From NCBI GenBank assembly GCA_030248195.1, contig JASAND010026017.1, positions 35,737-99,736 on the forward strand: a stretch of DNA of 64,000 nucleotides. Direction: 5' to 3'. This DNA comes from Trissonchulus latispiculum (lineage: Eukaryota; Nematoda; Enoplea; Enoplida; Ironidae). Of the stretch, positions 10,636-48,611 are shown piece after piece. How positions within the stretch are numbered: the stretch's first letter is position 1; every line of letters begins with the position of its first letter. Below the pieces are notes generated by a model, which saw nothing but the letters and a program-made list of their open reading frames with translations, was not told where the DNA came from and did no database searches. A program made the translations under genes and the position numbers.

Positions 10636-11390
10636 TGTAACGGATCAAGGTTGGCATGGTCAACCTTTCCGTTGCTGGCGGTTGTAGCTAGGCTAGCTAC
10701 CCGCTTGGCTTCCTATAACATCATCATGTGGGCTGGGACACGTTTGCAAGTCACGTAGCTCCCCCAACGTGTATGCGTGGGATTGGGTGGGTTCCCCCCT
10801 CGTGACTTTGGGAGCTACGTGATTTGGGGGAAATTCTCACTAGGGGGCGCTCGTGGGAGGGTCCAACCCATACACTCGCTCCCCTATTCATTCTTGTATT
10901 ATTCTGCCGTTGTGTACAGTTGTGTTTACTCTGCTATTCTCCCCCCTTATTTGCTGTGTATATTATTGTGTCTCTCCCTCAGCTCTCCCCAGAGCTTGGT
11001 ACGTTGGCTGACCCCCGTCAGCCCGCTGTAACTGTAAGTCTAGTATTTTGTGTGTTTGTTTGTGTGTGCTTGAGGGTTCAACCCAGTATTTTATTATTGT
11101 ATTGTTATAATTACTATAACTTGTTGTTTTGTTCTTTATTAAAGTGTATTTAGTTAGGTTTGAGTCTTTCTGAGCTCCTGCTAGGTAGGTAGTTACATCT
11201 TGAGTGAGTGAGAGTGCGAGTCATCTCGCCCTTAGGATCGGACTATTTACTGCGTATATTGTCTGGCGAGGCTGTCCCGACCGTCTCCTGTAGTCGGTCT
11301 GTTATCCATCTGTGCCACGGTCTCCGCGTCCGCTACGTCAGGGCGTGGTAACGGTGTTAGTACGTAGGTTAAACTACTAGCCCCGCTACA
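10636..11390 (+). repeat. 5' LTR (755 bp)
   Basis: It starts with TG, ends with CA and is a near copy of 28871-29618. It contains a 13-bp inverted repeat, TCACGTAGCTCCC (10751-10763) and GGGAGCTACGTGA (10810-10822). It also has a GTAAGT splice-donor-like site at 11034 and an ATTAAA polyadenylation signal at 11138-11143, followed by TG-rich sequence. The signals imply transcription starting upstream of about 11030. I cannot place the exact start. Small open frames inside the LTR are present in both copies only because the LTR is duplicated. Confidence 0.95.
11034..11039 (+). promoter_or_regulatory. Candidate 5' splice site in the LTR
   Basis: The sequence ACT|GTAAGT is an excellent donor match, lying just upstream of the ATTAAA signal at 11138-11143. 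It is conserved in the 3' LTR at 29268-29273. It could supply the leader for spliced RNAs joined at 11836 or 20345. This is an inference from consensus only. Confidence 0.45.
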
Positions 11391-12008
11391 TTAGGCTGCC
11401 AGGAGCTCAGGGATTTCTTGCCTGAACCCCTTCGTAAAATTTTTCAAATTTTTATTTATTTTTGTCTTAGTTTCGTTGGGGTTCCCCCCGTAGTTCTTCG
11501 CGTTCAGCGCACGAATTTTTTTTCCAATTTTCTTAGGTCAGGTAAACCCCCCCTCTAGGGTCAAAAAATCGGAAAATTTTTTTCTCTAGGGTCTGACTGT
11601 TTGTATACGTGTATAACTGTGTACCTGGTTCTCCCCCACATTAGGCTCTAATATAGCATTTATTTTTGGGGTGAGTTAGTCTAAGGCTATTTTTGGGATT
11701 TGAGTTAGGAATTTTTACCAAAATTCGTACCTAATTAACAAATAATTTTGTTGTGATCATTTTTGTTTGTGTTGGTGATTTTGCTTGTCTAATCCCCTTC
11801 ATTTTAGGTTAATTTTGGTAATTGTTTCTTTTTCAGGTCAAAAATAGTAATTTTGTACCACAATTTATATCAATTTGTTGTATTTTGTGTCACTGTTTAT
11901 ATACGTATACATTAGTATTTTTCTGGGGTACCTAAGAATATTTTTGGGTTGTACTAATTGTCATTTTCAAAAAGACCTTTTAGGAAAAGAAGAGAGTGCA
12001 ACTCAAAT
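11391..12008 (+). other. 5' leader of the LTR element
   Basis: T-rich leader between the 5' LTR and Gag. The bases right after the LTR (TTAGGCTGCCAGGAGCTCAG) do not begin with TGG as a standard tRNA primer-binding site would. A pyrimidine tract and CAG at 11817-11836 form a candidate 3' splice site. An open frame extends upstream of the Gag ATG to 11958, but without an ATG. Confidence 0.7.
11817..11836 (+). promoter_or_regulatory. Candidate 3' splice site upstream of Gag
   Basis: TGTTTCTTTTTCAG is a good polypyrimidine tract plus AG. Joined to the LTR donor at 11034, it would remove about 800 nt of leader and leave Gag as the first long ORF. It is consensus-based only. Confidence 0.3.
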
Positions 12009-14480
12009 ATGGACCAAAAGCGCGCAAGCTTACGCTTGAAAGAACGGGAACTACGTCACCAACCTTATTCGGTGACTGGACATCGTGGAGACTCCCATTT
12101 GGACTGTATGGGATGTCGGCCCTCCACGTCGAGAGCGAATTCTGGGTCGTTCGACGACCGGGAACCGGTGCAGAGGATGCGCCCCCGGTCCAGTTCTGCC
12201 ACGACAGCGGATCTGAGAAGAAAAAAGAGTGGCTGGGCATCGGGGACTGCTCGGAAAAGCAGTGCCCCTACTCTGGATCCAGGAATCTCCAGTTCTCTGA
12301 CCACATTATCTGAGCCGGAATCATCAGGAGTGGGTCCGTCATCGGACTCGGCATTTGTGACAGCAGCATCAAGCCTGGTTTCTTTGGATGACAACCATTC
12401 TGATGGTCTAACTGCTCAGACACGAAGCTTCAATGACGAACTGAATAGGACATTGAGCTGGAAAGAACTTGGATTTGATCAGAGGGACTCTCCTCAGAGT
12501 TCTGAGTCGAGTCCCGGGGACCAGACCGTCATCGGTCTTGAGGAGCGCATGGACCTGGGTTCGTCCCCGGACCGTGGGCAGGCTCTACAAGAATCTGATG
12601 ATGATATGACGGCCCTGGGAGCTGCGGCGATGCCTGGATTGCCACCTTTGGACGACCTGGTCAATTCTGTGTACCAGAATCTCGGAATTGATCTGGAACG
12701 CGAGTTCTCGCTTGGAACGGCGGCACTAAATAATTGGGCCATGGATTCGGCAGCACAGCATAGGCTGTCCTGGGACCCATCCTTTGATGTTGGGACCCAG
12801 GCTTTGGCTTCACCGTCTCATCAGCCCAGTCCATCACGGAGCTCCGCGGGTGTCATCACCCCTGTAGCAGTGAACCAAGGAATGGAACAGCAAGTTGTGG
12901 TGCCTCAGCCCTCACAAACGACAGCCAGGGGACAGATGGGCCCAGCCCAACGCCCTGAGGGAGCAGTCGTGATCACATTGAACACGACCGTCGTGAATAA
13001 CCAGATTTTGCGACCGGACCTTTGGTCAACCCCATCACAAACCTCATCACCGGTGACCAGAAGACCAAATATCTTGCGACCATCGGTTCGTGGTGGACGG
13101 ACCGGTCATCGGGTTCATGCTGGTGGTCGGACTTTGATGTCGTCAATTCCGGAAACCAGTCCAGCTGATCATTTGGGACCAATGGAACCATCAACCAGTC
13201 ATCAGCCATCACAGGAACAGCCGGTTCGTCCGACTGTCACCCCACCGCGACGACCATCGTCCGGTGGGTCGGTCAACATGGTCAGAATGACGCCTCAACA
13301 AGTGCAGATGTTGAATGACTACACCAAGTGGTTCAAGTCGATCTCCAAGTTCAAGGGCCGGAAAGGAGCCATCAAATTGTCAACATGGCTGAAGATGTTT
13401 GAGTCAACTTGGGAGGCAAGTGGAGCCGAGCTTGACCTCAAACGGCCATTGTTGTGGTATCTGCTTGATGATGTGGTCAAGCAAGACTTGGAAGGTCAGA
13501 CCATGGGAACTTACGAGGAGTTGGTGTCCATTCTTCATCAGCTGTATGAGCCGGTCACCAAATCGGCCGACAAATATGCTCGGGAATTCTTCGAACGGAA
13601 ACAACTCGCATCGGAATCGAGCCTGGATTATCTCAACGAGCTGAGGTCCCTCGCCTGCAAAGCTTTTCCGACGGCCGAGCTGAAGGAACGAGAGCTAAAG
13701 GTCGTAGAGCGGGCCTCTAGAGGACTCAAAGCGGCATTGCGAGCAAAGGTCGCGAGTTTGTTCGCTGATGCCGAGAATTGGGACCATCGCAGGCCGAACG
13801 ATATCTTCATGCGAGCCGTGCGTATTTTGGAAGCGGTCGAGGATGGTGACACTCAATCAAAGCCAATGGAGACCATCTGTAGCGTTGGTGATGGTGAGAG
13901 GGTTCAGCCCATTGATCAGCAGGAATGTCCAGCGTACGTACGCGAACTCAAACGTGAGCTTCAGGACATCAGGAACTCGATCGTCCAAGGCCAGGCAATG
14001 GCAACAGGTCAACAATCCTGGGACGACGAAGTGGTCGCAGCCTGTGAGATATTGGACGATCCGAACATGCAAGACTTGGACCCGGAGGAAGTCTGTTTTC
14101 TGGTGGAGCAACAGGCGAACACTGGAAACTCAGGAAAGGCATCTTCTAGTCAGGATAGGTCCAATCGTTGTACCTACTGCGCGGAACCTGGTCACAGGTG
14201 GGCACATTGTCCGGTGTATAATAAGAACATCACCTTCTGGGGTGACGACCCACTTTGGCTCAGAATGGTCAACAGCAGGTTCTTCGGATGCTTGCTGAAA
14301 CAGAAGGACGATGGCACTGGTCAATTTGAAGTGAAACGCCCGTCCGGCGGTGGTGGTGCAACGCGTGGTTCGGGTCGCTTCCTGTCATCAGGTCGCGGCG
14401 GTGGTGGGTTCAGGAAAAGAGGTGGTGGTGGTGGAAGCAATGCTGGTCAACGAACTGGTGGCAATTCGGGAAACGAATGA
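12009..14480 (+). CDS. gag: Gag polyprotein of the LTR element
   Basis: This is the structural protein that should assemble the virus-like particle and bind element RNA. It has 823 residues from the first ATG (12009). The frame is open back to 11958 without an ATG. The N-terminal half (about 1-410) is Ser/Pro/Thr-rich and probably disordered. Residues about 423-608 form an alpha-helical capsid-like Retrotrans_gag region (WFKSISKFKG..., TWLKMFE..., SLDYLNELRSLACKAF). A single CCHC zinc knuckle follows at C721-x2-C724-x4-H729-x4-C734. The tail is an RGG/poly-Gly segment, a common RNA-binding composition. At over 800 residues it is long for a gypsy Gag. The stop codon overlaps the first Pol ATG (ATGA), and a slippery heptamer precedes it. 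Confidence 0.93.
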   Translation: MDQKRASLRLKERELRHQPYSVTGHRGDSHLDCMGCRPSTSRANSGSFDDREPVQRMRPRSSSATTADLRRKKSGWASGTARKSSAPTLDPGISSSLTTLSEPESSGVGPSSDSAFVTAASSLVSLDDNHSDGLTAQTRSFNDELNRTLSWKELGFDQRDSPQSSESSPGDQTVIGLEERMDLGSSPDRGQALQESDDDMTALGAAAMPGLPPLDDLVNSVYQNLGIDLEREFSLGTAALNNWAMDSAAQHRLSWDPSFDVGTQALASPSHQPSPSRSSAGVITPVAVNQGMEQQVVVPQPSQTTARGQMGPAQRPEGAVVITLNTTVVNNQILRPDLWSTPSQTSSPVTRRPNILRPSVRGGRTGHRVHAGGRTLMSSIPETSPADHLGPMEPSTSHQPSQEQPVRPTVTPPRRPSSGGSVNMVRMTPQQVQMLNDYTKWFKSISKFKGRKGAIKLSTWLKMFESTWEASGAELDLKRPLLWYLLDDVVKQDLEGQTMGTYEELVSILHQLYEPVTKSADKYAREFFERKQLASESSLDYLNELRSLACKAFPTAELKERELKVVERASRGLKAALRAKVASLFADAENWDHRRPNDIFMRAVRILEAVEDGDTQSKPMETICSVGDGERVQPIDQQECPAYVRELKRELQDIRNSIVQGQAMATGQQSWDDEVVAACEILDDPNMQDLDPEEVCFLVEQQANTGNSGKASSSQDRSNRCTYCAEPGHRWAHCPVYNKNITFWGDDPLWLRMVNSRFFGCLLKQKDDGTGQFEVKRPSGGGGATRGSGRFLSSGRGGGGFRKRGGGGGSNAGQRTGGNSGNE

Positions 14481-14510
14481 TGGGGGAGCGGACCCCCGCC
14501 AAAAAACCGC
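14468..14510 (+). promoter_or_regulatory. Predicted -1 ribosomal frameshift signal, gag to pol
   Basis: GGGAAAC lies at 14468-14474 in the Gag phase G GGA AAC, which is the X XXY YYZ form. A 7-nt spacer follows, then GGGGG (14482-14486) that can pair with CCCCC (14493-14497). The loop bases GCGG (14488-14491) can pair with CCGC (14507-14510) across the A-rich linker GCCAAAAAA. This makes a compact H-type pseudoknot. The shifted frame is Pol, open from 14330. The arrangement resembles the GGGAAAC-plus-small-pseudoknot signals of poleroviruses. An alternative is termination-reinitiation at the ATGA overlap. Confidence 0.7.
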
Positions 14511-17500
14511 AGGCCGGTCATGTTAGCATGATTAGGAGGCCACCCGACCACAGGGGTCACGATTTCCCGAACCGTGGATCATGGGGATCCCAGGTCGACC
14601 ATTGGGTCCGACCAGTCAGCCAGTTCCGTCACTCAGGTCATGTCAATATGTTACGATATCAGCATATTGGGACGCTTTCCGATGAGGAATTGCATACACC
14701 GCGTTGGAAATGCATTGAAGGATACCCCGAAGCTAAGTGCTTCCATATGGCTTGTGTCTTGCATAATGGACGGAAGCAGGATCGCCATTCGGTCGGGGTC
14801 TTCCCCAGAAGACTTCACTTGCCTCAGCGGCAAGACCAGGTTCCTCTGAGACCTCAGGAACATCCGGATTCTGGGCAATCTCAGGAACCTCGGGGACCGA
14901 AAAAGCCGAAAAAGCCCAAGAAGCCCAACAAAAATGGCAAGAAGAAGAAGGGCAAAGCTCAGTCACAGGATGGGTCTGTTTGTCAGGAATCGGATTCGGA
15001 ACAGTCACCCATGAATTCGGTGGCAACACAAGCTGTCACGGTCAAGGACGGCTTGTCTCTTCAGGAGGCTGCATCAAAGGATTGCAATCCGGAACCAAGT
15101 TCACCGGATGCTCGTGCTTCGAACTCGAGTTCAACTCGGGTTTCTAGCACGAGCCCCGGGGACGGCCCTCGTGATCAGCCTACGTCGTCATCGACGTCTG
15201 CTACTGCCAAAAAGACCGAGAACGCGAACTTGGATGCTCCAGCTATTCCGAAATTGAAACTCCAGCGGTCAGCCGGTGATACCTGGCACACTCCACGTAA
15301 AGCCGCGAACCGGACCTCCACCAAAGGTCAGGATGATATTCCGACGTTCAATAGGTTTGATCCGTTGGATTTGTCCAAGGTAGACGCGGACATGTTGGAG
15401 GCATACTGGACTCGACTGACCAAAGCACAAGACGCCTGGAGCCAAGAGGAGGATAAACTGGGGAAAATGGAGGGTGCCGTTCAACGGCAGTCCCCCAAAA
15501 CGAAGGCAGCAGCGAAGACAGTCGTAGACAACATGGAGGATTTCGAGGAGGTTCTGAGTGCCTTCGTGAAGAAATTCCGTCAGGAGGACACCGCCAATGT
15601 GGTCGAAATGGTGTCCAAGGCCACCGAACCTGATGACGACATGGCTCGTCCCTCGACTTCGGGTCATCCCGAAGACGAGGATGACCATGACGGATCGACC
15701 AAAAAGGACATCCGTGAAGCTGTTCGACAGGTCATGAACGGCGAGGCGGTCTATTTTGCGAATTCAGTGGCTTCCATCTCGCTACGTCACTCGCCATATG
15801 TCCTTTTCCGGATTAATGAAGTCACTGCCCTGGGTCTGGTGGACACCGGCGCTTCTGTCTCATTGATCTCAAAGGAGTTCTATGACAGGGTCAAGCATCA
15901 CGCATTGACGCCTATGACAGCAGCGGAGATGCCTAGCATTTCGGCAGCCGGAGAGGGAAACAAATTGACGATCCTTGGTCAATGCAAACTAACGATACGG
16001 TTTTGTCAAACGCAAGGACAGATGGCAGAAAGTACAACTTACAGGTTTTATGTGGTTCCGGAGTTACAACAGGAAATGCTGATAGGGTATGACTTCCTGT
16101 ATGATATGGGCTATAGCATTCATCCTGGTGGTGGTTTCATGTCCAGCTACTATGGAAGAGTGCTCTTTCTGAATTCAGCTGAACTGCAGGGGATATCGGT
16201 GGTGTATAATATCCCAATGGCTGCAGCGGTCAACTTGTGTATCAGGGAAAGGGTCAGAGTGCTCCCTGGTCGAGAAAAGGATGTTCCGGTAAAGGCTACG
16301 ATGGCAGGAGGCCTAGCCGTACCGAAGAGCCAGTTCATGCTGTTTGAAGCGAACCCGGAGGCTATTGAAACATATGGAGTGTTTCCTCAGGCTGGTGTCC
16401 TGACTGTGACGCCAAAGGTCACCTACATTCGTGTCTACAATGGAGGAGACCAAATTGTTGACCTCCCTAAAGGAATGGTTATGGGAGAGGCCTGTCCAGC
16501 AGTCCAGGTTCGCGAGGCGGAACGGCCAACATCCTACGTAATGGAGGCAGGGGTCGATTTGCAGACCATCCATTACAATCTCAATAGATGGTTCGGTCAT
16601 CCGGCCACCTATTCGCTATGGGCGGAACAGGTTGGTGAAAGTGTAAGCAAGTTACACAGGATGTTTCCAGGGTTCTATCCATTGGATTTACCACTACAAC
16701 CATCTATGGAACAAGCTGACGCAGTCGTGGTTCAGCGGCCCAAATCGCCAGTAACTTATGCGGTCCAGGAACCCAAACATAGAACCGAGATCCATAAGTC
16801 AACTGATCCTGATGCGGATAAGGATCGGGAAATGCCTTCAGAGACGACCACTGGTGGACATTTCTACTCTGCTGAGGATCGGGAGCCACGTCCTGAACCT
16901 ACAGAGCAGGAAAAACTGGAGGATATTGAGGCCAATGTAGATTTTGATAAGATGGATTGCTCGGACGACATCAAAGCGGAGTTCAAGAAGATGCTCTTGG
17001 AATACTACGACGTAGTGGCCCGGCCAGGTAATCCTGGTCGGACCAAAATAGATCAGCATCTGATTGACACAGGCAAGGATGGACCTCTGAAGAGCCGTGC
17101 CTATCGTATGAATCCGAAGCAGAAGGCTGAGGTCGAGAAGCACATAAACTCCATGCTCAAGGAAGGGGTATGCGAACCCTCGACAAGTCCGTGGTCTTTT
17201 CCCTGCATTCTGGTTGGAAAGAAAGATGGTTCAACCAGATTGGTCATTGACTACCGCAGGCTGAATAAGATCACCAAGAAGGACAACTACCCACTGCCAA
17301 AGATTGATGAGATCATGGACCAGCTCAAGGGTAGTGCAATCTTTTCAACGATAGATTTAGCAGCTGGTTATTGGCAGGTCGAGGTATACCCTGAGCATCG
17401 GGAGAAGACAGCGTTCGTGTCTCACATGGGACTGTTCCACATGAACGTCATGCCTTTTGGGCTGTGCAATGCGCCAGCCACCTTCCAGAGGATCATGGAA

Positions 17501-19783
17501 AAGGTTTTGACCGGATTGCCTGTCTACATTGATGATGTCCTGATTCCATCACAATCCTTCAGTGAGCATCTGAAAATGCTCAAGGTCGTCTTCCAGAAGT
17601 TGCGTGATAATGGACTACGGATCAAACTGAAGAAATGTGTCTTCATCCGCAAGAAAGTCCCTTTCTTAGGGCATCTGATCAGTCAGGAGGGCTACGAGGT
17701 AGATCCTGACAAGGTAGCTGCAGTGGCCAAGCTACCTAATCCTGTTGATTGCCGTGGCGTCAAGGCGTTCCTCGGAATGTCTGGATACTATCGGAGGTTT
17801 GTGCCCAACTATGCCAAGGTGGCAGCACCGCTCATTGAACTGCTCAAAAAGGATGCCGTCTTCGAGTGGACCGAAGCTAGACAACGGGCGTTCGACGCAT
17901 TGAAGAAAGTTCTGACCGAAGCTCCGGTGTTGGCTTATCCGGATTTCGACAAGATTTTCATTTTGTCGGTGGATGCGAGCCATCATGGCTTGGGAGCGGT
18001 CCTCGAACAGCCCGTGTCGATTCCTCGCAGTCCGAAGAAACCGGGCGAGGCATGGACGGTAAAGACACGTCCAGTGGCGTATGCCAGTCGTACACTCACG
18101 GTGTACGAGAGGAATTATTCGGCCACAGATCTCGAAGGAGCAGGAGTGGTTTGGGCATGTCAGAAGTTTCGCCACTATCTGACGACAAGAGCTTTCATCA
18201 TCAGAACGGATCATATGGCAGTTAAGGACCTCCTTAACAACAGATCAGTGCTGGGAGCTGGAAGACAGGCAAGATTTGCCTTGCGCCTGCAGGAGTTCGA
18301 TTTCATAGTGGATTATCGACCAGGCCGTGACAATGTCGTTCCGGACGCTTTGTCACGTCTTCCAGGCTATGACCGTCCAACGGAAATGGAAATGGATGGG
18401 ACGGAAGTCATGTACCCGCCAGAAATCTGTGCCATTGGTGATGATGTGCTCACCTCCGCCGAGTGGAAACGCGCGCTGCGCAAGGATCCGGAATTCAAGC
18501 CCATGGTGGACTTGATTGAACGGAAATTCCTGCCGGATGATGACCAGGAAGCTGCTCTGCTGCAGAAACTCCGGCCGTACTTCTTCATACAGGACGGGCT
18601 CCTGTTTGTTTGGCACGTGGACGAGAGAGGTCGAAGAAGAGGTGACGCATTCAAGTCGATCGCCGTGCCTTACGATTACCGCGAGGTGATCATGGAAGAA
18701 GTACACACGAGCTTCATGGTTGGTGGTCATCGCAGCCATAAAGCTTGCTACGCGAGCCTCGTGTCACGGTATTATTGGCCGACCATGGCACAGGACCTCG
18801 CTGATTACATCAGAACTTGCAAGGTCTGTGCAAAGTTCAATAAAGGCCCGGCCAGGCCTCAAGCTGGATTGCAAAATGAAGTCCGTGCCAACAGACCTCT
18901 GGATTTGGTCAGTCTGGATGTGATGCATTGCACGAAGAACCGGACCCTTCGAGGCAATACCTGTATTTTGGTCGTCATCGACCATTTTACACGGTATGCG
19001 GAGGCTTTTGCCATGCCCGACGAGAAGGCAGAAACGACGGCCTACTACTATTTCAACGGATTCGTCGCTCGTTGGGGAGTTCCAGTGCATTTGCTGTCGG
19101 ACCGTGGACCAAATTTCATGTCAAAGCTGTTCACGAAACTGACCGAGCTTAGTGGATCTAAACTTCAGCGGACAACGGCTTACCATCCGCAAGCAAATGG
19201 AGTGGTGGAAAGAATGAACAAGACTCTCCGGACCATCTTCATGAAGTATGCGGATATCTACCAAACGGATTGGGATGACTATGTGAACTGGGCGCTTTGC
19301 GCATATAGGAATTCAGTTCATAGTTCAGTGGGTGACACGCCTCATTTCCTGATGACTGGACACGACATCCGGTTGCCTTTGGATCATTTCTTCGATGGTA
19401 GAAATGATGAGGTGGTGGAGAATTATGATTCGTACTCACAATCCCATCTGTTCCGGTTGGAGCGAGCTTGGAAGGCCGCTCGTGAGTCGTTGGAAGCGTC
19501 ATCGCTGAAGAATAGGAAGAATTTCGACAAGAAGGTCAAGGAGGTCCACTATAAGCGCGGGATGCTGGTGATGCGCAAAGTTACAGGAGTAACTCCTTCC
19601 GGTATGTGTGCCAAGATGAGACCAAAATGGGAAGGACCTTACCGGATAGTGGAGAAGATGTCGGAAGTCAACTTCCGAATCCAGAAAGTTGGAACACAGG
19701 ACAAGCCGGATGTGGTTCACATCGAGAAGATCAAGCCATATCATGAACGGCCAGTCAAAGTTCCAACCCAGCCGTTACATTAA
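14477..19783 (+). CDS. pol: Pol polyprotein (protease, RT, RNase H, integrase)
   Basis: It copies the element RNA into DNA and inserts it. Counting from the ATG overlapping the Gag stop, residues 1-430 are a long low-complexity extension with a Lys-rich patch near 143-160. The aspartic protease motif is D456-T-G. RT has TID960 and the YIDD box at 1017-1020, with SVDAS (D1166) starting RNase H. Integrase has an HHCC finger beginning at H1410, then catalytic D1481, D1542 and E1578 (60 and 35 residues between). A GPY (1720-1722) near the end marks a GPY/F module. No chromodomain follows. Domain order protease-RT-RNase H-integrase defines the Ty3/gypsy lineage. The frame is -1 to Gag and intact over 1768 residues, and all key catalytic residues are present. 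Confidence 0.96.
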   Translation: MMGERTPAKKPQAGHVSMIRRPPDHRGHDFPNRGSWGSQVDHWVRPVSQFRHSGHVNMLRYQHIGTLSDEELHTPRWKCIEGYPEAKCFHMACVLHNGRKQDRHSVGVFPRRLHLPQRQDQVPLRPQEHPDSGQSQEPRGPKKPKKPKKPNKNGKKKKGKAQSQDGSVCQESDSEQSPMNSVATQAVTVKDGLSLQEAASKDCNPEPSSPDARASNSSSTRVSSTSPGDGPRDQPTSSSTSATAKKTENANLDAPAIPKLKLQRSAGDTWHTPRKAANRTSTKGQDDIPTFNRFDPLDLSKVDADMLEAYWTRLTKAQDAWSQEEDKLGKMEGAVQRQSPKTKAAAKTVVDNMEDFEEVLSAFVKKFRQEDTANVVEMVSKATEPDDDMARPSTSGHPEDEDDHDGSTKKDIREAVRQVMNGEAVYFANSVASISLRHSPYVLFRINEVTALGLVDTGASVSLISKEFYDRVKHHALTPMTAAEMPSISAAGEGNKLTILGQCKLTIRFCQTQGQMAESTTYRFYVVPELQQEMLIGYDFLYDMGYSIHPGGGFMSSYYGRVLFLNSAELQGISVVYNIPMAAAVNLCIRERVRVLPGREKDVPVKATMAGGLAVPKSQFMLFEANPEAIETYGVFPQAGVLTVTPKVTYIRVYNGGDQIVDLPKGMVMGEACPAVQVREAERPTSYVMEAGVDLQTIHYNLNRWFGHPATYSLWAEQVGESVSKLHRMFPGFYPLDLPLQPSMEQADAVVVQRPKSPVTYAVQEPKHRTEIHKSTDPDADKDREMPSETTTGGHFYSAEDREPRPEPTEQEKLEDIEANVDFDKMDCSDDIKAEFKKMLLEYYDVVARPGNPGRTKIDQHLIDTGKDGPLKSRAYRMNPKQKAEVEKHINSMLKEGVCEPSTSPWSFPCILVGKKDGSTRLVIDYRRLNKITKKDNYPLPKIDEIMDQLKGSAIFSTIDLAAGYWQVEVYPEHREKTAFVSHMGLFHMNVMPFGLCNAPATFQRIMEKVLTGLPVYIDDVLIPSQSFSEHLKMLKVVFQKLRDNGLRIKLKKCVFIRKKVPFLGHLISQEGYEVDPDKVAAVAKLPNPVDCRGVKAFLGMSGYYRRFVPNYAKVAAPLIELLKKDAVFEWTEARQRAFDALKKVLTEAPVLAYPDFDKIFILSVDASHHGLGAVLEQPVSIPRSPKKPGEAWTVKTRPVAYASRTLTVYERNYSATDLEGAGVVWACQKFRHYLTTRAFIIRTDHMAVKDLLNNRSVLGAGRQARFALRLQEFDFIVDYRPGRDNVVPDALSRLPGYDRPTEMEMDGTEVMYPPEICAIGDDVLTSAEWKRALRKDPEFKPMVDLIERKFLPDDDQEAALLQKLRPYFFIQDGLLFVWHVDERGRRRGDAFKSIAVPYDYREVIMEEVHTSFMVGGHRSHKACYASLVSRYYWPTMAQDLADYIRTCKVCAKFNKGPARPQAGLQNEVRANRPLDLVSLDVMHCTKNRTLRGNTCILVVIDHFTRYAEAFAMPDEKAETTAYYYFNGFVARWGVPVHLLSDRGPNFMSKLFTKLTELSGSKLQRTTAYHPQANGVVERMNKTLRTIFMKYADIYQTDWDDYVNWALCAYRNSVHSSVGDTPHFLMTGHDIRLPLDHFFDGRNDEVVENYDSYSQSHLFRLERAWKAARESLEASSLKNRKNFDKKVKEVHYKRGMLVMRKVTGVTPSGMCAKMRPKWEGPYRIVEKMSEVNFRIQKVGTQDKPDVVHIEKIKPYHERPVKVPTQPLH

Positions 19784-20417
19784 GCCTTGGTATGGTCCAA
19801 GAAGGGTAGGTCATCCTACCATCAGGTTGGTCAGGATGGAAATCAACATGCTGTGGTTAAAACCATCATGGGAGATTTGAACTGTATACTGGTGATGTTT
19901 TGTAGGGAATGTATGTTGGTTATATACGTATGTTTGTTGTGAGATTAGCTACCTTATAACATTCATAAAGGTTATCGTATGTATGTGCACTGGCCTTATG
20001 GGGCCCCACTTTGTAGGCCGGTCACGCCAACGTACCAATAACATCACTGGGGGGATAAAATTTTTATGTTTTGGCACTTTTTGGGTCAAGTTTTTCTTTT
20101 TGTGGGGGTTAATTTTTCATTGTTGGGAGGGTTTTGATTCATTACCTTTTCAACAATTTCTCTTAGATTTCTTTTAATTTAATTTCCAATTAATCCCCGA
20201 ATTTAAACTTTTCCTAAGAATCTAATTACTTTAATTTTTATCTCAATACAAAATTTTCCCTATTCCTTGGGTGGGTGGTCCCTTACCGCAAAATTTGGGT
20301 TATTTGTTGCATGTTGAACCTACACCTTTTTGCTTCTTGTTTCAGCTGGTAGTATTCTAGTAGTCGCCATCTGGATCAAATTATTCTGTATTTTTGTGCA
20401 TATCTGGAGAAGTCACC
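19784..20417 (+). other. Untranslated spacer between Pol and ORF3
   Basis: About 630 nt, AT-rich, with no ORF. Its 3' end carries a strong 3' splice site at 20321-20345. Pol and ORF3 are in different frames and too far apart for readthrough, so ORF3 must be expressed another way. Confidence 0.7.
20321..20345 (+). promoter_or_regulatory. Candidate 3' splice site for an ORF3 mRNA
   Basis: TACACCTTTTTGCTTCTTGTTTCAG is a long pyrimidine tract ending in CAG, 72 nt before the ORF3 ATG, with no ATG between. Joined to the LTR donor (11034) it would give a short leader directly in front of ORF3, as retroviral env is expressed. Inference from consensus and position. Confidence 0.5.
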
Positions 20418-23400
20418 ATGCATTTACAGTTCAGGAAGAAAAAGCAGAAGGACGGACACGATCCTATGGTTGGTGAGGGTGCAGCCCAAGCCCAGGCGCC
20501 GGACACCGAGGATTTGGAGCAGTTTCCCCCTCCAGAGGAGCCCAAATCCGTGGTCGAGGACTTGGGATCTGACCACCCCATGGGACAGCATCCAGTTGTA
20601 CCCCCTTGTGTGTCCGAGACATTCCAGGTGCCCGCATCGTCAGCGAGCCCATTATCGGAACTGTTCGAACAATTGGATCCCGCACCATATCAGGACTCGG
20701 ACTCGTACAGTGCCGTGGTCGCCTCGGACGAAAATCGGATGGGCACGGGTCGTTCCAGCGTGTCATCACGTCTGGGAGGCCAACCGGAAGCCCCGTCCCC
20801 AGTGGGTTCATCTAACCCCGGGCAGATGGATCCTCAGTCTTTGCCTGAGGTCTCTGGTGAGCCTACAGAGTTCAGCTCTGTTGGCCACGACCCAGCGACT
20901 GCAGCGCGGGACTGCCCGGCCACGACGACAGGCCACCGTACAGACCATGGACGCCAGGTCCCTATCCCAACTGGCAAGCCCGAACATCAGAATCCTGTCG
21001 GTCCGACGTCCCAGGGAACCAAGCGGTCGGCAGTTGCTGCCAGTGGCGACGCTGATGAAGATTCGGACACTCGGACCTCGGCTCCCAACGGGAAGAAGCC
21101 ATGTGCTTTAGCCAGAAGGAGCAGTCCACCATCTACTTGTTCCACGACCGCGCCTGGAACAAGTCAAGACACTACCCCCCTTAATCCAGGGATTGGATCA
21201 AATCTGTCCCTCAAGGACATTGAGGCACAGATGGCTTTCCTGCAAAGCCAGAAGAAACTGGTCTTACAGAAGCTCCATGGCCAGTCAACAGTTTCTCAGG
21301 ACACTGCTTCTTCAGTTGCCGAGTCATCTCGGTCAACTTCTAATAAATCTAAGACTAAGAAGAGGAACCGTGGTGGTTCTCGGAAGAACTCTAGTGGTGC
21401 CCAGTCAGCTCAATCTGCTACGGAAACTGATGAGCCCTCGCGGAAACCATCAAAGCAAAGCAAACGTTCTGCAGCGAAACAGCAAAAGGCGGGGCCGTCA
21501 TCGGCCGAACCCGTCGTGGTGGACCTGGACACCGACCAACCACCACAGGCTAGCGATTCTACCCTGCAGAAGGCCTCCATGGGTGAAGTGGCCGATGCTC
21601 AATTGAAAGCCGGTCAGCTCGTGGTCCTGGAGGAGGTCAATGAAGACACCGATGGCTCATTGGCAAAAGTGGCAGGAGCGTGCGACGCATCATCGCCACG
21701 GTTAGCGGCAGGAATGGACGACGTTGCTCAGAGCGTCCCTATGGTCCTCGAAGGACATGAGCATGTCCTGCCGAACTATCCTCACATTGTCCTGATGACA
21801 CCACAGGAGAGGGCCACCGCCCTCAGCTATGAAATTCCATCACGAGAGGAGATTGAGGCGGTTCCTGGTAATCTACAAGAAAGAGCCAAGGAACACCTCT
21901 CTGGCATCGCGACCTATGAGCACTATCTGAAGCTGGTGCTACAGAACAGGGAGAATGAGTACGACACTCAACATCCAGAAGCCTGCCTTACTGAAGCCAT
22001 TTGTGACGTTCAGGCGATTTCTAACCCGGAGAAAGATTTTCAGTTCAGCGAAGACCATCTATCTTTGCCGGACAATTTCCAACCTTTACGGTTAATCAGA
22101 ACCCTCCAGGGTCTCTTTGATGCGATTCCGGACATCCTGGAAACGTATCAGTCGACTGGCGTCATCGCCATGGATATTGAAGGCGGCTCGTACACTCAGT
22201 TCGGCAATAAACAGGATGCCGCTATCACCATCATTCAGATCGCTGGACCAGTTCCTTCACGACATCCGAAGGTCTTTATGATTATGGTCAGCGAAATCCT
22301 GGCATCACTGTCGGACTACTATGCGGTCCTCTATGCTCTGAAGATCATTCTTCATCCACCAGAGCCGGTCTATATGGTATTTGCTGGTGGTCAGGCCGAC
22401 TTCCTACGTCTGGCCAAATTCTGTGGTCTCACTGGCATGGAGAACTATGCTGCCGAACTTGGAGCGATCATCGCCCAGTCTGTACCTTATATACAGGCTA
22501 GACGACGACAAGATCCGACGGTTCCTGAGGTCCCTTGGGAAAATATCACCGACACGACCAAGGAATCGTACGTCAACACTCATCACTCCCTGAGCAAGGT
22601 CTGCGAATACTGCGATGTCCCATCTCCTAAAGGACTGCGACCGTTGGACTTTCATGGGTGTTTGGTCTGGCCCACCGTAGAGGAAGCAACGTATGCCCTC
22701 GCTGACATTTTGGCCATCTATGCCTGCTTGGTCAAGGTCGCTAATGCCTTGCCCTCTGATGAGTGGATCCAGGTGATCTACCTAAGCAGTGCACGATACA
22801 CCTTTTCACCCAGCCTATGGCCGAAGATCAACAAGGAAGCCGAACTGGGTGTTGGCCCAATTGCCCAGGCCAGAATGTTCACCCCTGGGAAGTATGCGGC
22901 TTCGCAGATCCTCCATGACCGTCAGATGGAATGCCGACGGAACTTGACTATCAAACGGGGATCAGTGAAGTACCTGAAAGGGAGCTTCGCTTGGTCATTG
23001 TCTGTCCACGAAGAGGAGGGTGGTAATGCTACCCACCCCCTACGAGAGGTTTCCTGGGTGCCCCTGATGGAGTTGCTGACCAACTTCTACGATCTGAAGT
23101 TCATGACCAAACGGCGACGCGATGAGGGTCTGGACTTCAACTGGTATGCGATCGTCGCAAACCGCCACCATCACGCGGATCCAAATGACACTCCGACAAA
23201 CCTACCACCTGATAAGGCCCATCGTTTCCTGCGAAAGGACGACCAACCATCAGATGAGGAGTCTGGGTGGTCACCCACCCCTCCTAACGAGCAGACGCAG
23301 GCCGACGAACCGGAATCATTGGCGGAAGCACGAAAGGCTGCCCAGAAACGGGAAAAGGAGACGAAGTTACCGCCCTTGCCGAAGAAGCTTCCACCATTGA

Positions 23401-26400
23401 CCCACTATAAGGAAGGCACTGGTGATCCGAGGAAGAAGGAGAAGCCTCCGGTGACCTACTCTGGCGGTCACCGCTATGTGGAGGATCGTCCAACATATCA
23501 GACGGCTGGGTCATCCCAGCCGGCCCAAACTGCGGTCACCACGAGCCCACGCAAAACGCGGTCATCTGCTCGTCAGCAGGAAGCTGAGAAACTGGCCAAA
23601 GAAACCGAAGAACCGGAGGTCATTCAGGTGTCCGACGAAGAATACGCGGCGGATGAAGAGCAGCCATCAGAATCGGTCGGGCGTCGTGAACCGACACCTA
23701 CGGACGAAGACGCCCAACGTCAACAGGGCACTTTTCAACCGACCCTTCTGGAGGCCTGTGCACCCAGGCTGACGATGGCCAACCCAGCCCTCCAATCCGG
23801 TTGGCATCCACCTATGACGAACGAACAGCGGGCTCGTCTAGCCTCGCTGGCATCAGGGATCAGGGTTCCCCGTACGTCCGGTTCGTCCGTGACATCGTCA
23901 GGGGCCCCTCAGGCAGTGGACGAGATCCTGACCCAGCACGGAGACATTCCACACGTATCGTATCAGGAGGCCAGACGGTTTCTGGTCTCTTGTAGCGAAC
24001 GCCCTGGTGGTGTAACGGGCCCATCCACCTACCTTCCGGACCTTTATCACTGGAAGTTGGAACAGCCCGTGATCATCAGCCAGTTGGCCACGTCGACGGA
24101 CCCGTCATCAGGGGTTCAGTCGTCTGTCAACGTCTCCATTGCGAGGGTTCAGCCCTATATCCAGATCCTGGTGCCCGAATCAATTCTGACTCTGAACGCC
24201 CTATTTCGAGACTCACCCATTGGCGTTGATCAGCCTAAACGCCATATCTACGTGGTGGGACCCCCTGCGGACCCCGAAATGCCAGGGTACGATCCTGAGA
24301 ACTTTTTCCGGATGGTGGCTCAGGGTAACCCGGTGTTCTGGGAGGTTTATCGGGAGGTTCCCACGGATGGCTCGGGCCCTCCTTTGCGGTGGTCCGATCT
24401 GGTCATCCTGTATCGGAAACGGGACGGTGGTGCTATGGCCCATGGGATCCTGCCCTACATTAACACCTTGAACTCTTTGGGTGTCGGGGACACTAACTTT
24501 TCTGTGGTTATGGGCCCGATGTTCCTGGAAAAGGAGCAGAAGTCGGAGCTCATGCAGGTAATGCAGTTGGCGGAACTGCAGGGACTTAATCCGGTCGTGG
24601 TCATGCGGGAGCATGAGGGACTGTGCAAACGGCCTGGTCACTTCGACATCGGACTCACGGCCGTGACCCAACCGGCTCCGGACCCGTCCGCCTTTGTGGT
24701 TCCTGAACCCCGCCCAACTGGAAATGTGATGATGGGTCCGTCCGTCATCCAAACTTTGATGGGAACGGCGGTCCCGTCCACACCTGCGGCACCCACGGCT
24801 CCCGCGACACGATTCGGCTCGAAACTGCGTCGGGTCGAATCATCCCAGGGCGATACGACCAGCGTCATCGCTTGGTCAGCACCAAAAACCCCGTTGGTTG
24901 GAGCGGAGGCAGCGAGACCTGGTATCTCTGCCTCTCAGTCTGACGTTTTCGGCGGTGTTTCTGGTTCGGGACGAGGCCGTGGCTTTCGTCCTTTCGGATC
25001 CGATTCGGATTCATCAACGGCAACCGCTTTCACGACTCGCTCAACACCTGTGAGTCTCCGTCAACGATCCGGCACACCTGGTCGGGTGGCCTATGTCCCT
25101 CTGGAGGAACCACCTCTGGATTCCCCAGCCCATGACCAGTGGGAGGCCGTCTATCGCGGTCAACGGGACACTCAACCGTCAACATCACGTCAACAGCGGT
25201 CGCCTCGTCGGGAGACTTCTCGTCCTCCCGCCTCCATCGAACCTCGTGATCGTGACTATTCGCGGTCACACCGTCGTGAACCTTCGACTGATCGTCATCG
25301 TCAGCGTTCGTCATCCCGTCGTCGGGATTCCCGTCCATCGTCACGAGCGTCTCGTGGCCAGCGGCCGGAATCTCGCGATGACCGTGGCCAGCGTCCGTCA
25401 ACGAGCCATCACGAGCGTCAACCAGCCCGTGAACGATCACCATCAGCTCGTCGTCGTGACCAGGACCGTCATCGGCAACCATCACGGGATCGTCGTTCGG
25501 ACGAGCGTCAGCGATCGACCGAGCGTCGGCAGGAGTCTCGCGATCATCGCGCTGACCGTCGACCTCCAACCTATCCGAAGGCTCAGCATCACGTAGAGTC
25601 TCGACAGAATCGCGACAAACGTCTAGCGGCCGACGCTTTAAGCCGACAACGACCACAGAAGTCGACTTATAGCGTGCCACGTGTGAAAACTATCAAGAAA
25701 CCTGATGGTCGGAACTCTGCTATTCGGGAACTTCCACCCGAGTATCCCAATAACTATACGAGGGACACTTTTCCGCCATTCCGGGTTTACTTGGTCAATG
25801 TCCTTTGTGACATGCTCAATCAGGACATTGCGCGGTCGGTTTCTCGGGGAACTGAGGACCCGATCTACGACGAATTCAAGATCGAGCAGCCCACACCGGC
25901 TGAAGTCGCTGAGATCAAAATAGACCGTTGGCCCGACGACCCGATTGTTTATTGTCGGGATAACAACCTCCAGTGGATCCCACACAATGTCCCTGGAGAT
26001 CCATCTGAGAAGAAGCTCCATCCTTGGGTGGCCTTGTTTCGCGACGAGGTCCTCAAGTGGATGCAGGCCAACGCCCACGATTCCCAGCGGTTCCCATCGG
26101 ACTTTATGGACACCATCTGGCAACGGATGTGTGCTCGCGACAGCCAGCTGACGAATCACATGACGGCAGATCCGCAGCCTGAACAGACCGGCGGTCGGAC
26201 TGTTTGGCACTCGCGATGGGTCATCAAGGACTACCGTGATCGTCACGGGAAGCTGTTCAAGGGCTTTCCCGTCAACCGCGTTTCGTCGAATGCACGATGG
26301 GCCAACTGCTTGGCCATGGCAGCGCTGGTGCCCGAACTCTTTCGGTACCCGCACCTGATTCGGCGATACGAGTCCCAGCATTTCTACGTGACCCATATGC

Positions 26401-27395
26401 ACGCTCGGCGTCTTCGGACCCGCTGCATGACGGTCCGTCAGGCCATGCTCGGATATCATCGGCCCAACGTCGAGGGCATTGCCAACGTGGACGAAGGCTA
26501 TTTCCTGTGCTTCTACCTGGGGCCGGACTATGCCTTCTCTTTCATGCATAACCATCTGCCGCATGTGTCGTTGCCGGTGGAGCAGCTCGAAAACCAGGGT
26601 TTCCAGACCAAGGAACACCTGTATCAGGGGCGAAAGGGCTGGTTTTGCCAGTCCGACGTCGTCATGGACCTCGTGAGGGAGCATCCCCATCAGGATGGCT
26701 TTGCTATCAAGCGTAGCACCGATCAAGCCATCGCTGCGCTGCCCGCTTGTCGCATAGAGCGCTGGCAGTCGGGTCCTGATCAGCTCACCCAGCGGCTGAT
26801 CATTTTCCACACGTTCTATCAGTCTGTGGAAATGCAGGAGTTCCTGGTCCAGACCATCGGAAGCTATTACGGGAAGGCTTCCACGGATCCTTGGTGGGGT
26901 CTTGGTGTCCGGGTTCCTCGTGGTTTCAAACCCGACGATCTGACTTTTAACGGGAAATATAATTTCCTGTTCAATACGGACAATTGGAACGGGCGAAACA
27001 TCCAAGGGTCTTTGTACACCGAAGTGGGCCTTTGGTTCATGCAGGCGGGCCCTGATGAGCTTTGGGAGGACAGGTTTGACCGTGTCCCATTGAAAGACGC
27101 TCGTCTTGAGGCCTACCTCAATGTCGTTCGAAAGCGCATAGATGCGGCGGCCGAGCGCTATAATCGTGGTCAGCCCGCACCTCCGTTCTTTCGACAGGAC
27201 GCACCGGCGGCCCTGCGAAAGCAGCCGATTGACCTGCCACCCAATTGGACCGGTGTCCACATCGCCGGGTGCGCTCCGCCAGGACAGGAGAAGAACATCT
27301 TCTATCCGTGCTTCGCCCTGACCATTTGGAATCCGTTGGAACCCCATCCAAATGACCACCACAGGTCCACAGAACTGATCATGCGGGAATATTGA
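20418..27395 (+). CDS. ORF3: giant accessory protein with DEDDy 3'-5' exonuclease domain
   Basis: It has 2325 residues from ATG 20418, in an ideal CACCATG context. An open TTG-led extension to 20394 is less likely. Residues 1-260 are disordered. About 263-290 is a possible coiled coil, and basic patches follow near 309-360. Residues about 550-790 look like a DnaQ-fold exonuclease: AMDIEG supplies D586/E588 (Exo I), ADFLRL supplies D661 (Exo II) and YALAD supplies Y759-x3-D763 (Exo III). SLSKVCEYCDVP aligns with the SL..LC..YL segment usual before Exo III. Residues about 1121-1415 are compact but unassigned. About 1588-1718 is an Arg/Ser-rich RS-like tract. About 1755-2325 is a Trp/Tyr/His-rich unassigned domain. 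No signal peptide or membrane segment is seen, so it is not env. Exonuclease activity is predicted from motifs only, and the target is unknown. Confidence 0.85.
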   Translation: MHLQFRKKKQKDGHDPMVGEGAAQAQAPDTEDLEQFPPPEEPKSVVEDLGSDHPMGQHPVVPPCVSETFQVPASSASPLSELFEQLDPAPYQDSDSYSAVVASDENRMGTGRSSVSSRLGGQPEAPSPVGSSNPGQMDPQSLPEVSGEPTEFSSVGHDPATAARDCPATTTGHRTDHGRQVPIPTGKPEHQNPVGPTSQGTKRSAVAASGDADEDSDTRTSAPNGKKPCALARRSSPPSTCSTTAPGTSQDTTPLNPGIGSNLSLKDIEAQMAFLQSQKKLVLQKLHGQSTVSQDTASSVAESSRSTSNKSKTKKRNRGGSRKNSSGAQSAQSATETDEPSRKPSKQSKRSAAKQQKAGPSSAEPVVVDLDTDQPPQASDSTLQKASMGEVADAQLKAGQLVVLEEVNEDTDGSLAKVAGACDASSPRLAAGMDDVAQSVPMVLEGHEHVLPNYPHIVLMTPQERATALSYEIPSREEIEAVPGNLQERAKEHLSGIATYEHYLKLVLQNRENEYDTQHPEACLTEAICDVQAISNPEKDFQFSEDHLSLPDNFQPLRLIRTLQGLFDAIPDILETYQSTGVIAMDIEGGSYTQFGNKQDAAITIIQIAGPVPSRHPKVFMIMVSEILASLSDYYAVLYALKIILHPPEPVYMVFAGGQADFLRLAKFCGLTGMENYAAELGAIIAQSVPYIQARRRQDPTVPEVPWENITDTTKESYVNTHHSLSKVCEYCDVPSPKGLRPLDFHGCLVWPTVEEATYALADILAIYACLVKVANALPSDEWIQVIYLSSARYTFSPSLWPKINKEAELGVGPIAQARMFTPGKYAASQILHDRQMECRRNLTIKRGSVKYLKGSFAWSLSVHEEEGGNATHPLREVSWVPLMELLTNFYDLKFMTKRRRDEGLDFNWYAIVANRHHHADPNDTPTNLPPDKAHRFLRKDDQPSDEESGWSPTPPNEQTQADEPESLAEARKAAQKREKETKLPPLPKKLPPLTHYKEGTGDPRKKEKPPVTYSGGHRYVEDRPTYQTAGSSQPAQTAVTTSPRKTRSSARQQEAEKLAKETEEPEVIQVSDEEYAADEEQPSESVGRREPTPTDEDAQRQQGTFQPTLLEACAPRLTMANPALQSGWHPPMTNEQRARLASLASGIRVPRTSGSSVTSSGAPQAVDEILTQHGDIPHVSYQEARRFLVSCSERPGGVTGPSTYLPDLYHWKLEQPVIISQLATSTDPSSGVQSSVNVSIARVQPYIQILVPESILTLNALFRDSPIGVDQPKRHIYVVGPPADPEMPGYDPENFFRMVAQGNPVFWEVYREVPTDGSGPPLRWSDLVILYRKRDGGAMAHGILPYINTLNSLGVGDTNFSVVMGPMFLEKEQKSELMQVMQLAELQGLNPVVVMREHEGLCKRPGHFDIGLTAVTQPAPDPSAFVVPEPRPTGNVMMGPSVIQTLMGTAVPSTPAAPTAPATRFGSKLRRVESSQGDTTSVIAWSAPKTPLVGAEAARPGISASQSDVFGGVSGSGRGRGFRPFGSDSDSSTATAFTTRSTPVSLRQRSGTPGRVAYVPLEEPPLDSPAHDQWEAVYRGQRDTQPSTSRQQRSPRRETSRPPASIEPRDRDYSRSHRREPSTDRHRQRSSSRRRDSRPSSRASRGQRPESRDDRGQRPSTSHHERQPARERSPSARRRDQDRHRQPSRDRRSDERQRSTERRQESRDHRADRRPPTYPKAQHHVESRQNRDKRLAADALSRQRPQKSTYSVPRVKTIKKPDGRNSAIRELPPEYPNNYTRDTFPPFRVYLVNVLCDMLNQDIARSVSRGTEDPIYDEFKIEQPTPAEVAEIKIDRWPDDPIVYCRDNNLQWIPHNVPGDPSEKKLHPWVALFRDEVLKWMQANAHDSQRFPSDFMDTIWQRMCARDSQLTNHMTADPQPEQTGGRTVWHSRWVIKDYRDRHGKLFKGFPVNRVSSNARWANCLAMAALVPELFRYPHLIRRYESQHFYVTHMHARRLRTRCMTVRQAMLGYHRPNVEGIANVDEGYFLCFYLGPDYAFSFMHNHLPHVSLPVEQLENQGFQTKEHLYQGRKGWFCQSDVVMDLVREHPHQDGFAIKRSTDQAIAALPACRIERWQSGPDQLTQRLIIFHTFYQSVEMQEFLVQTIGSYYGKASTDPWWGLGVRVPRGFKPDDLTFNGKYNFLFNTDNWNGRNIQGSLYTEVGLWFMQAGPDELWEDRFDRVPLKDARLEAYLNVVRKRIDAAAERYNRGQPAPPFFRQDAPAALRKQPIDLPPNWTGVHIAGCAPPGQEKNIFYPCFALTIWNPLEPHPNDHHRSTELIMREY

Positions 27396-28863
27396 GTGCG
27401 TCGTCATCGAGCCTCATGACCCATGGTCCGTTCATTCCATCAGTTATGACTCTTCGCAGTCCGGAAAGTCATCTTTCCTGGTTGTGAAATCCTCTAATTG
27501 TGACTTTTTCTGGCATCCGAGTGGACTTGACCCATGTCCAACCCACCATGATGACGGTTCATCCGATGCTAGACCTGGACTTGACTTTTCTCCATTGATC
27601 TACGGATCCTGATCACATATAGATCATTGTTTTAGCTGTTATTTTGACATTTCTGTTGCATAATTGCATATGTTATTTTGTATTTTAATTCACGAATCTG
27701 GTTTCTTACGAATATGATATTTAGAATTTGGAATTTCTTGTTTTGTTTAGTTTCTTGAATTGTATTATTTGTTACCTAGGACCAGAATCTCTGTGATGTG
27801 CAATGTGTACTTAAATTTAATGTACGTACGTTTTCTTAATTTTCTTTGAATTCATATTTACTCTCTTTGTCAAAATTTCTCTATGAACCTATAATATCTA
27901 TGTTTAGTAATTTTTGAACCTGAATCTGCTGTATTTTCTGTGTTTAGTATATACTAACTGTTATTCTTTGTATTTTGTTAGTTTTGTTAGCTACGAACCT
28001 CGAATTTTCTTAGTTTTGTATTTTTGTTATAACTATGTCGTATGTTAACCGTATAATTTTTCGTATTTTTCTACTAGTTTTATATGCCAATGACATTTGC
28101 TCATAATATGTATAGTGCTTTATTTGAGAGGAATCATTCCATACTGCCATATATATGTGTGCCTTATATTGTCGAAAAACCCAGTGACGAATCTCGTCAT
28201 ATGAAAATACATAATTTTACCTAGGGAGGGTGGGGTTTTTCTTCCCATAGGACCTCCACCTAACGGTGTGTATTTTCTATGGTTATTTTATTATTATGAT
28301 TATTATTATCATAGGCAGTTTGCCTTGTTGAGCGACGGCCTGATAAACCCTAGCTCAGCTTGGTTTAACTTAAATTTAATTAATATTTTATCTGAAAGTT
28401 CAACTTTTATTTCTTTGTTAACATATATTAACACACTCGTTTGACTATACATTCCAAAGGAGGGTAACTCCTCTTTCCCATGAGTTATCTTTGGAAAGTC
28501 ATTTGTATTTTCATATTAAGTTACTTACAATCCCAGTTAATTAATACGGTTCTAGTTTAATACGTGTATTTTTCTTTACCAAATACTTATGCTTAATCTT
28601 TGTCACTTTGTGCTTTAATTTTTGACTGTTACTAGTGCTTCATAGTGCCTAGTATATGCATAATCTCTGTACTATGTAGTATTTAATCACTTATTTTTGT
28701 GTTTTTTCTACACTTGTTAATTTAGTCTAGAGCTTATGACTTGCAGTTGCATTGTACTTGTAGCATCATTGCTCTGTACTGTATGTACTTGTTGAGAGTT
28801 CAGCTCACGTACCAGTTCGCCATTTGTGCAGTGATCCTCTCGGGAGTTCGGATGGCGAGCCCT
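27396..28863 (+). other. 3' untranslated region of the LTR element
   Basis: About 1.47 kb, strongly T-rich after the first 200 nt, with no ORF. I see no extra splice-bounded exon or repeat. Confidence 0.6.
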
Positions 28864-28870
28864 GGGGAGA
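28864..28870 (+). promoter_or_regulatory. Short polypurine tract before the 3' LTR
   Basis: GGGGAGA lies immediately before the TG of the 3' LTR. That is the expected place for the plus-strand primer, though it is short. Confidence 0.5.
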
Positions 28871-29618
28871 TGTAACGGATCAAGGTTGGAATGGTCAACC
28901 TTTCCGTTGCTGGCGGTTGTAGCTAGGCTAGCTACCCGCTTGGCTTCCTATAACATCATCAATGTGGGCTGGGACACGTTTGCAAGTCACGTAGCTCCCC
29001 CAACGTGTATGCGTGGGATTGGGTGGGTTCCCCCCTCGTGACTTTGGGAGCTACGTGATTTGGGGGAAATTCTCACTAGGGGGCGCTCGTGGGAGGGTCC
29101 AACCCAACACTCGCTTCCCCCCTTCATTCTTGTATTATTCTGCCGTTGTGTACAGTTGTGTTTACTACGCTATTTCTCCCCTTATTTGCTGTATATATTA
29201 TTGTGTCTCTCCCTCAGCTCTCCCCAGAGCTTGGTACGTTGGCTGACCCCCGTCAGCCGCTGTAACTGTAAGTCTAGTTTATTGTTTGTCTGTTTGTGTG
29301 ACTGAGGGATCATCCCAGTATTTTATTGTATTGTTATATTACTATAACTTGTTGTTCTATTCTTTATTAAAGTGTATTTAGTTAGGTTTGAGTCTTTCTG
29401 AGCTCCTGCTAGGTAGGTAGTTCTATTCTGAGTGAGTGAGAGTGCGAGTCATCTCGCCCTTAGGATCGGATTACCTGCTGCGTATATTGTCTGGCGAGGC
29501 TGTCCCGACCGTCTCCTGTAGTCGGTCTGTTATCCATCTGTGCCACGGTCTCCGCGTCCGCTACGTCTGGGCGTGGTAACGGTGTTAGTACGTAGGTTAA
29601 ACTACTACCCCCGCTACA
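28871..29618 (+). repeat. 3' LTR (748 bp)
   Basis: Near copy of 10636-11390, with roughly 30-40 substitutions and small indels counted by eye, concentrated in the TG-rich and T-rich parts. It retains the inverted repeat, the donor-like GTAAGT (29268-29273) and the polyadenylation signal. It is followed by ATACAGTC. Confidence 0.95.
29366..29371 (+). terminator. Polyadenylation signal ATTAAA in the 3' LTR
   Basis: CTTTATTAAAGTGTATTT is shared with the 5' LTR (11138-11143). This is the most likely 3'-end signal for the element RNA. Confidence 0.55.
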
Positions 29619-38080: not shown

Positions 38081-38121
38081 TAGCAGGGATTCTAAGTTTA
38101 CAATTATCAACGTTTACTTCA

Positions 38122-39156: not shown

Positions 39157-39158
39157 TA

Positions 39159-48569: not shown

Positions 48570-48611
<42 letters not shown>

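Follow-up and report, generated by a model that had tools for sequence, protein, structure and literature searches.

A complete Ty3/gypsy-type element in the nematode Trissonchulus latispiculum with a very large separate ORF3 and a NADAR-like C-terminus

The stretch of Trissonchulus latispiculum DNA that was analyzed (64,000 nucleotides of contig JASAND010026017.1, referred to as the window) contains a structurally complete LTR element of the Ty3/gypsy type at positions 10636-29618, with a length of 18,983 bp. Between its LTRs the element carries Gag, Pol and a separate third ORF, ORF3. We tentatively read it, at a little less than even likelihood, as one complete and apparently autonomous element whose ORF3 product would be an intracellular, non-envelope protein that acts on the RNA or the particle of the element itself. 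An initial annotation of this DNA had recognized a gypsy-type element of about 19 kb with paired LTRs and, inside these, an intact Gag and Pol followed by a separate intact ORF3 longer than Pol. All of this was borne out: the frames of Gag and Pol are open and the motifs of protease (PR), reverse transcriptase (RT), RNase H and integrase (IN) are present, while ORF3 combines an open frame with a Pol-like codon usage and exceeds Pol in length (2325 versus 1768 residues). The analysis likewise supports the accompanying proposal that a structurally complete Ty3/gypsy element encodes a very large accessory protein which is not an envelope and is probably intracellular.

The described features of the element all lie on the forward strand. 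The 5' LTR (10636-11390, 755 bp) and the 3' LTR (28871-29618, 748 bp, with TATATA at 29192 and ATTAAA at 29366) are direct repeats with TG...CA ends, in keeping with the Ty3/gypsy assignment, and the 3' LTR is adjoined by a putative polypurine tract (GGGGAGA, 28864-28870). A primer-binding site with a TGG start was not found adjoining the 5' LTR. Just 3' of this LTR, the leader at positions 11400-11410 could pair with an 11-nt stretch inside the LTR (11170-11180), an extent of complementarity that was equalled in 6 of 2000 shuffled leaders; the site adjoins a misplaced TATA signal. The complementarity might reflect self-priming of the element, a reading that was not retained.

The Gag ORF (12009-14480, 823 residues) gave no match to a gag domain in Pfam and contains one CCHC zinc knuckle (CTYCAEPGHRWAHC, residue 721), a motif that again fits a Ty3/gypsy element. 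The Pol ORF (14477-19783) has a frame that is open upstream to position 14330, resulting in an overlap of 151 nt with Gag in the -1 frame, so that Pol may be translated either by frameshift or by restart. Its order of PR-RT-RNase H-IN, followed by a GPY/F-like module (GPY), is that of Ty3/gypsy elements, and the motifs are intact throughout (DTGA in the protease, YIDD in the reverse transcriptase, those of RNase H, and H2C2 and DDE in the integrase). In Pfam, Pol matched the reverse transcriptase (4e-32), RNase H, the zinc-binding, core and C-terminal parts of the integrase and, weakly, the protease; there was no match to a dUTPase. By tblastn, Pol residues 873-1737 matched at 37.1% a gypsy-like sequence in NZ_CP087956.1, a record titled as a moth Wolbachia plasmid. 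This record may represent host gypsy-like DNA that was filed as a plasmid.

Over the 757 columns of their alignment the two LTRs show 35 difference events; the mismatches number 26, with a few indels in addition. If this divergence reflected age, the 14.7 kb of coding sequence should have gathered about 257 substitutions and 90-100 indels (the latter range follows from the 10 gap events of the LTR alignment, one of which is situated at the alignment edge), yet all three frames are open. The differences are clustered (p=0.0008 in a variance test and p=0.018 for the longest identical run) and there is no target-site duplication (the flanks read AACTA and ATACA). Such a duplication is usual for a fresh insertion, and is not diagnostic of the Ty3/gypsy family. 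The clustering of the differences together with the missing duplication suggests recombination between related copies; the LTR data are most simply read as the outcome of recombination or conversion between two such copies, or of a join made in the assembly. In the case of recombination there would have to be a second copy, which need not carry ORF3; a search of the window for further copies of the LTR and the ORFs found none. The element as read might thus combine two copies, through recombination or an assembly join, instead of being a single insertion, in agreement with the clustered differences, the unmatched flanks and the three frames that are open against expectation. Nevertheless, the internal order and the motifs are coherent, the purine tract and the LTR ends are in place, and ectopic recombination of two full copies would still leave a real element structure. 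On balance we consider it unlikely that the element is such a product.

The surroundings of the element in the window include several other repeats. At 40210-44582 lies a near-identical direct duplication whose copies are spaced about 2.5 kb apart (2521-2538) and share 98-100% identity across the blocks listed, and a perfectly complementary inverted repeat of 565 nt has its arms at 42149-42713 and 48598-49162, 5.9 kb apart. A BEL/Pao gag-like DUF1759 sequence at 37781-39179 is adjoined by an inverted partial copy of 258 nt, and a BEL/Pao remnant with Peptidase_A17 and integrase in separate ORFs lies on the minus strand towards the end of the window (61603-63984). Tandem arrays are found at 51670-52092 (units of 47 or 140 bp) and at 9306-9614 (units of 60 bp). 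A tRNA-like match on the minus strand (57208-57280), which scored 41.2 bits and thus above the Rfam cut-off and was not called by ARAGORN, is perhaps a tRNA-derived repeat.

ORF3 (20418-27395) is separated from Pol by 634 nt and from the 3' LTR by 1475 nt, and its length of 2325 residues is counted from the first ATG, a start codon in good context (CACCATGC). Given the frame, base composition yields a probability of about 10^-37 that it would be open by chance. The synonymous codon usage of ORF3 correlates with that of Pol at 0.72, very much like that of Gag (0.73), whereas the control readings of ORF3, in two further frames of the forward strand and one of the reverse strand, reached 0.44, 0.11 and 0.37. 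For a BEL/Pao ORF, comparison with Pol gave 0.46 and comparison with ORF3 gave 0.32. The exception within ORF3 is formed by the Arg/Ser-rich residues 1580-1780, with a correlation to Pol of 0.13. Just upstream of ORF3 a candidate splice acceptor (20326-20345) is predicted; the scan had no shuffle control and listed six candidates for acceptors, spread over two stretches, as well as three for donors. Scans with exact peptide words, the reach of which is confined to close relatives, identified no relatives of ORF3 or of the other parts of the element in viral or genome contigs. In plasmids ORF3 had no match.

These data bear on the question whether ORF3 belongs to the element at all. A host or viral coding sequence could have been captured by chance, as a passenger in one copy and without any role in transposition. 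The fact that only one copy is known, the absence of ORF3 relatives within the reach of the scans, and the codon usage of the SR-rich stretch, so unlike that of Pol, are all compatible with such a history. A stop-free frame of 2325 codons next to a fully open Gag and Pol, and with an overall codon usage that resembles that of Pol, is not what a passenger would lead one to expect, however, and the mosaicism of the LTRs suggests a second parent copy, albeit one for which the presence of ORF3 is not implied. We hold a chance capture to be rather improbable.

ORF3 has a NADAR-like domain in its C-terminal part (residues 2055-2203; 26580-27026; Pfam PF08719, by profile and hhalign). The domain was absent from the initial annotation and is better supported than the nuclease that was put forward there. 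A search of Pfam with the whole of ORF3 returned one weak coiled-coil model only and did not list NADAR. When C-terminal pieces were compared with PF08719, E-values of 2e-5 (511 residues), 1.1e-5 (366 residues) and 2.6e-6 (211 residues) were obtained, with an alignment that spans profile positions 30-158 (129 of 163), and at E<=10 the trimmed domain matched no Pfam family but NADAR. Because the score of 28.2 bits lies under Pfam's curated cut-off of 35.1, as is the case for every piece, we label the domain 'NADAR-like'. An independent profile was built from eight sequences, namely YbiA of E. coli and seven proteins of phages that resemble it. Against this profile the C-terminal 366 residues scored 11.4 bits, versus 3.6 for the best of 1000 shuffles, and the whole of ORF3 matched at E=0.25. 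In hhalign the trimmed domain had a probability of 71% and a score that was reached by none of 150 shuffles; moreover, out of 35 tiles along ORF3 only two had a high score and both of these cover the NADAR-like domain. NCBIfam and PADLOC contained no NADAR for ORF3 and nothing informative, phrog_1017 matches the NADAR-like stretch at E=0.08, and the region had no match in phages. A scan of viral contigs with E. coli YbiA as the query returned one relative. Two single-sequence AlphaFold models, that of the NADAR-like domain (mean pLDDT 33) and another one (mean pLDDT 35), were unusable.

The equivalents of YbiA residues E48, K55, W89, D130 and W133 have been kept in ORF3 (E2066, K2073, W2116, D2157 and W2160). 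We take E48, W89, D130 and W133 to be the four critical residues of YbiA, a reading based in part on the spacing in PMC9303266. At the position of the catalytic acid E125, which is Asp or His in other NADAR subfamilies, no acid was found: by alignment it corresponds to Lys2153 or Gly2152, and we consider ORF3 to have the Lys. A bacterial NADAR lost its activity when the acid at this position was mutated (PMC11543638). Since the equivalent of E125 is essential in the bacterial protein and a Lys in ORF3, binding by the domain is easier to believe than hydrolysis. Taken together, the profile comparisons and the retained positions support a NADAR-like fold in the context of a retroelement.

The nuclease domain that the initial annotation had assigned to ORF3 fared less well. 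Residues 583-767 (22164-22718) do contain a set of DEDDy-like exonuclease motifs (IAMDIEG, IIQIAG, GQADFL and YALADILAI), that is, three Exo motifs with D, E, D and Y-x3-D in the right order, according to a pattern that was written after the motifs had been seen. This post-hoc pattern matches 7 of 8 RNase D-type sequences as well as ORF3, and not Gag or Pol; it turned up in one of 20,000 shuffles of ORF3 and in none of 20,000 shuffles of residues 540-800. Profile support, on the other hand, is lacking. The DEDDy-like part has no match in Pfam and no relative in the PDB, and its comparison with an RNase D profile was weak, with an hhalign probability of 3-5%. Although the hhalign score beats that of all 150 shuffles, tiles that match best at residues 693-713, at a distance from the first motif, come close to this score and the comparison is thus not specific. 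On the strength of the motifs, we are inclined with modest confidence to regard the region as an exonuclease.

The remainder of ORF3 includes an Arg/Ser-rich, SR-like region (residues 1580-1745; 25155-25652) with 30% Arg, 16% Ser and 18 RS/SR dipeptides, and much of the protein is rich in disorder-promoting residues. Its middle (about residues 1150-1420) has no Pfam match at E<=10, and a GDSL/SGNH identity for this part was dropped for that reason. The abundance of disorder-promoting residues, in combination with scores under the curated cut-offs and the weak profile match of the DEDDy-like part, could be taken to mean that both the NADAR-like and the DEDDy-like resemblance are spurious and that ORF3 serves the particle as a structural protein, disordered over most of its length. 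The shuffle and tile controls of the NADAR-like domain, the agreement at the positions of E48, K55, W89, D130 and W133, and the fact that NADAR is already known from other retroelements (PMC12477816) argue otherwise, and we find this reading very improbable.

In a hydropathy analysis two windows of 19 residues in ORF3 reached 1.6, both at residues 757-760 and hence in the putative third exonuclease motif. The earlier claim that ORF3 has no membrane segments holds as far as hydropathy is concerned: there is no strong hydrophobic segment and no convincing membrane segment, and Pfam yielded no envelope domain. That ORF3 would replace an envelope and serve cell-to-cell transfer without being a classical glycoprotein, for which its location at the position of env and the candidate splice acceptor upstream could be adduced, and which Rodriguez et al. 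leave formally open for enzymatic ORF3s (PMC5408684), is very improbable given these negative results and the long low-complexity and SR-like stretches that are typical of nuclear proteins.

The preferred reading, in which an intracellular ORF3 protein acts on the RNA or the particle of its own element, can be worked out as follows. Gag and Pol would be made in the usual way, whereas ORF3 would probably be translated from a spliced mRNA. The ORF3 protein would stay in the cell and act in trans, its target being either the RNA of the element or the particle formed by Gag, Pol and RNA. Docking on RNA-processing factors may be the task of the SR-like stretch, and the trimming or holding of 3' ends that of the DEDDy-like part; the NADAR-like part may bind ADP-ribosylated or other nucleotide adducts, where hydrolysis would occur only if the Lys substitution is tolerated. 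In this manner ORF3 could shield the very long RNA from RNA-based or ADP-ribose-based restriction by the host. It has been reported that NADARs strip ADP-ribose from guanosine in DNA and RNA (PMC11543638, PMC11833690), and that SNA-3, a NADAR protein of nematodes, functions in the processing of RNA in the nucleus (PMC9303266); viral NADARs are thought to counter ADP-ribosylation by the host (PMC9503650). A more far-reaching version holds that an animal Ty3/gypsy lineage, independently of brown-algal Gypsy elements and oyster LINEs, has built a dedicated protein of 2325 residues for RNA handling and counter-defence, in which an SR-like region is combined with a DEDDy nuclease and with a NADAR-like reader of ADP-ribose. 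We deem this version unlikely; if true, it would make the ADP-ribose-linked restriction of retroelements and its evasion testable in invertebrates.

Comparison with described elements puts the find in perspective. The elements Juno and Vesta of bdelloid rotifers (Rodriguez et al. 2017, PMC5408684) share the order LTR-Gag-Pol-ORF3-LTR, and their ORF3s resemble the present one in having DEDDy motifs, no envelope features and an expected intracellular role. Among bdelloid LTR elements such DEDDy ORF3s were acquired at least twice (PMC5408684). However, the Pol of Juno and Vesta comprises a dUTPase, unlike that of the present element, and their LTRs measure 159-551 bp, against 755 and 748 bp here; the part of that description used for the comparison, which was by description only, mentions no NADAR and no SR-rich part (PMC5408684). 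NADAR domains have been found at the N-terminus of Pol in Gypsy elements of the brown alga Ectocarpus and in ORF1 of Tx1 LINEs of the Pacific oyster, and the authors suggest that they process the RNA in transposition (PMC12477816). These elements likewise carry a YbiA-type NADAR domain, whereas in our case the NADAR-like domain forms the C-terminus of a separate ORF3 and has a Lys at the position of the catalytic acid (PMC12477816). With respect to size, the planarian Burro is an oversized gypsy-like element too, larger than the present one and with many extra domains (PMC6431247). In Burro the extra parts belong to a fused ORF1 of nearly 5000 residues that includes an env-like part, while here ORF3 is separate and Gag and Pol have the ordinary order (PMC6431247). 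The plant gypsy elements Retand and Ogre also have a long coding space beyond Gag-Pol (PMC11963269, PMC6431247), but the extra ORFs of Retand are antisense and TRP28-like (PMC11963269), in contrast to the forward-strand ORF3, and the size of Ogre is largely due to very long LTRs (PMC6431247).

Each of the ingredients is thus already known, and it is their arrangement in one separate ORF of 2325 residues for which no description was found: in the portions of the literature that were searched, we encountered no DEDDy and NADAR parts united in one large separate ORF3. The qualification 'undescribed system' in the initial annotation was too strong in view of the published DEDDy ORF3s (PMC5408684), the NADAR-containing Gypsy elements (PMC12477816) and giant gypsy-like elements (PMC6431247). 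As every ingredient has a published parallel, we regard the element as an unusual one and not as a new kind.

The significance of the element depends on the conservation of its third ORF. As a passenger in one copy, ORF3 would be a curiosity. If it is conserved among copies, an animal gypsy element would have a large accessory protein that is not an envelope and, next to those of Ectocarpus and the oyster, there would be another retroelement that has captured a domain of the NADAR type. Captures on several occasions would indicate a common requirement of retrotransposition, either the processing of RNA or the escape from ADP-ribosylation, which is testable.
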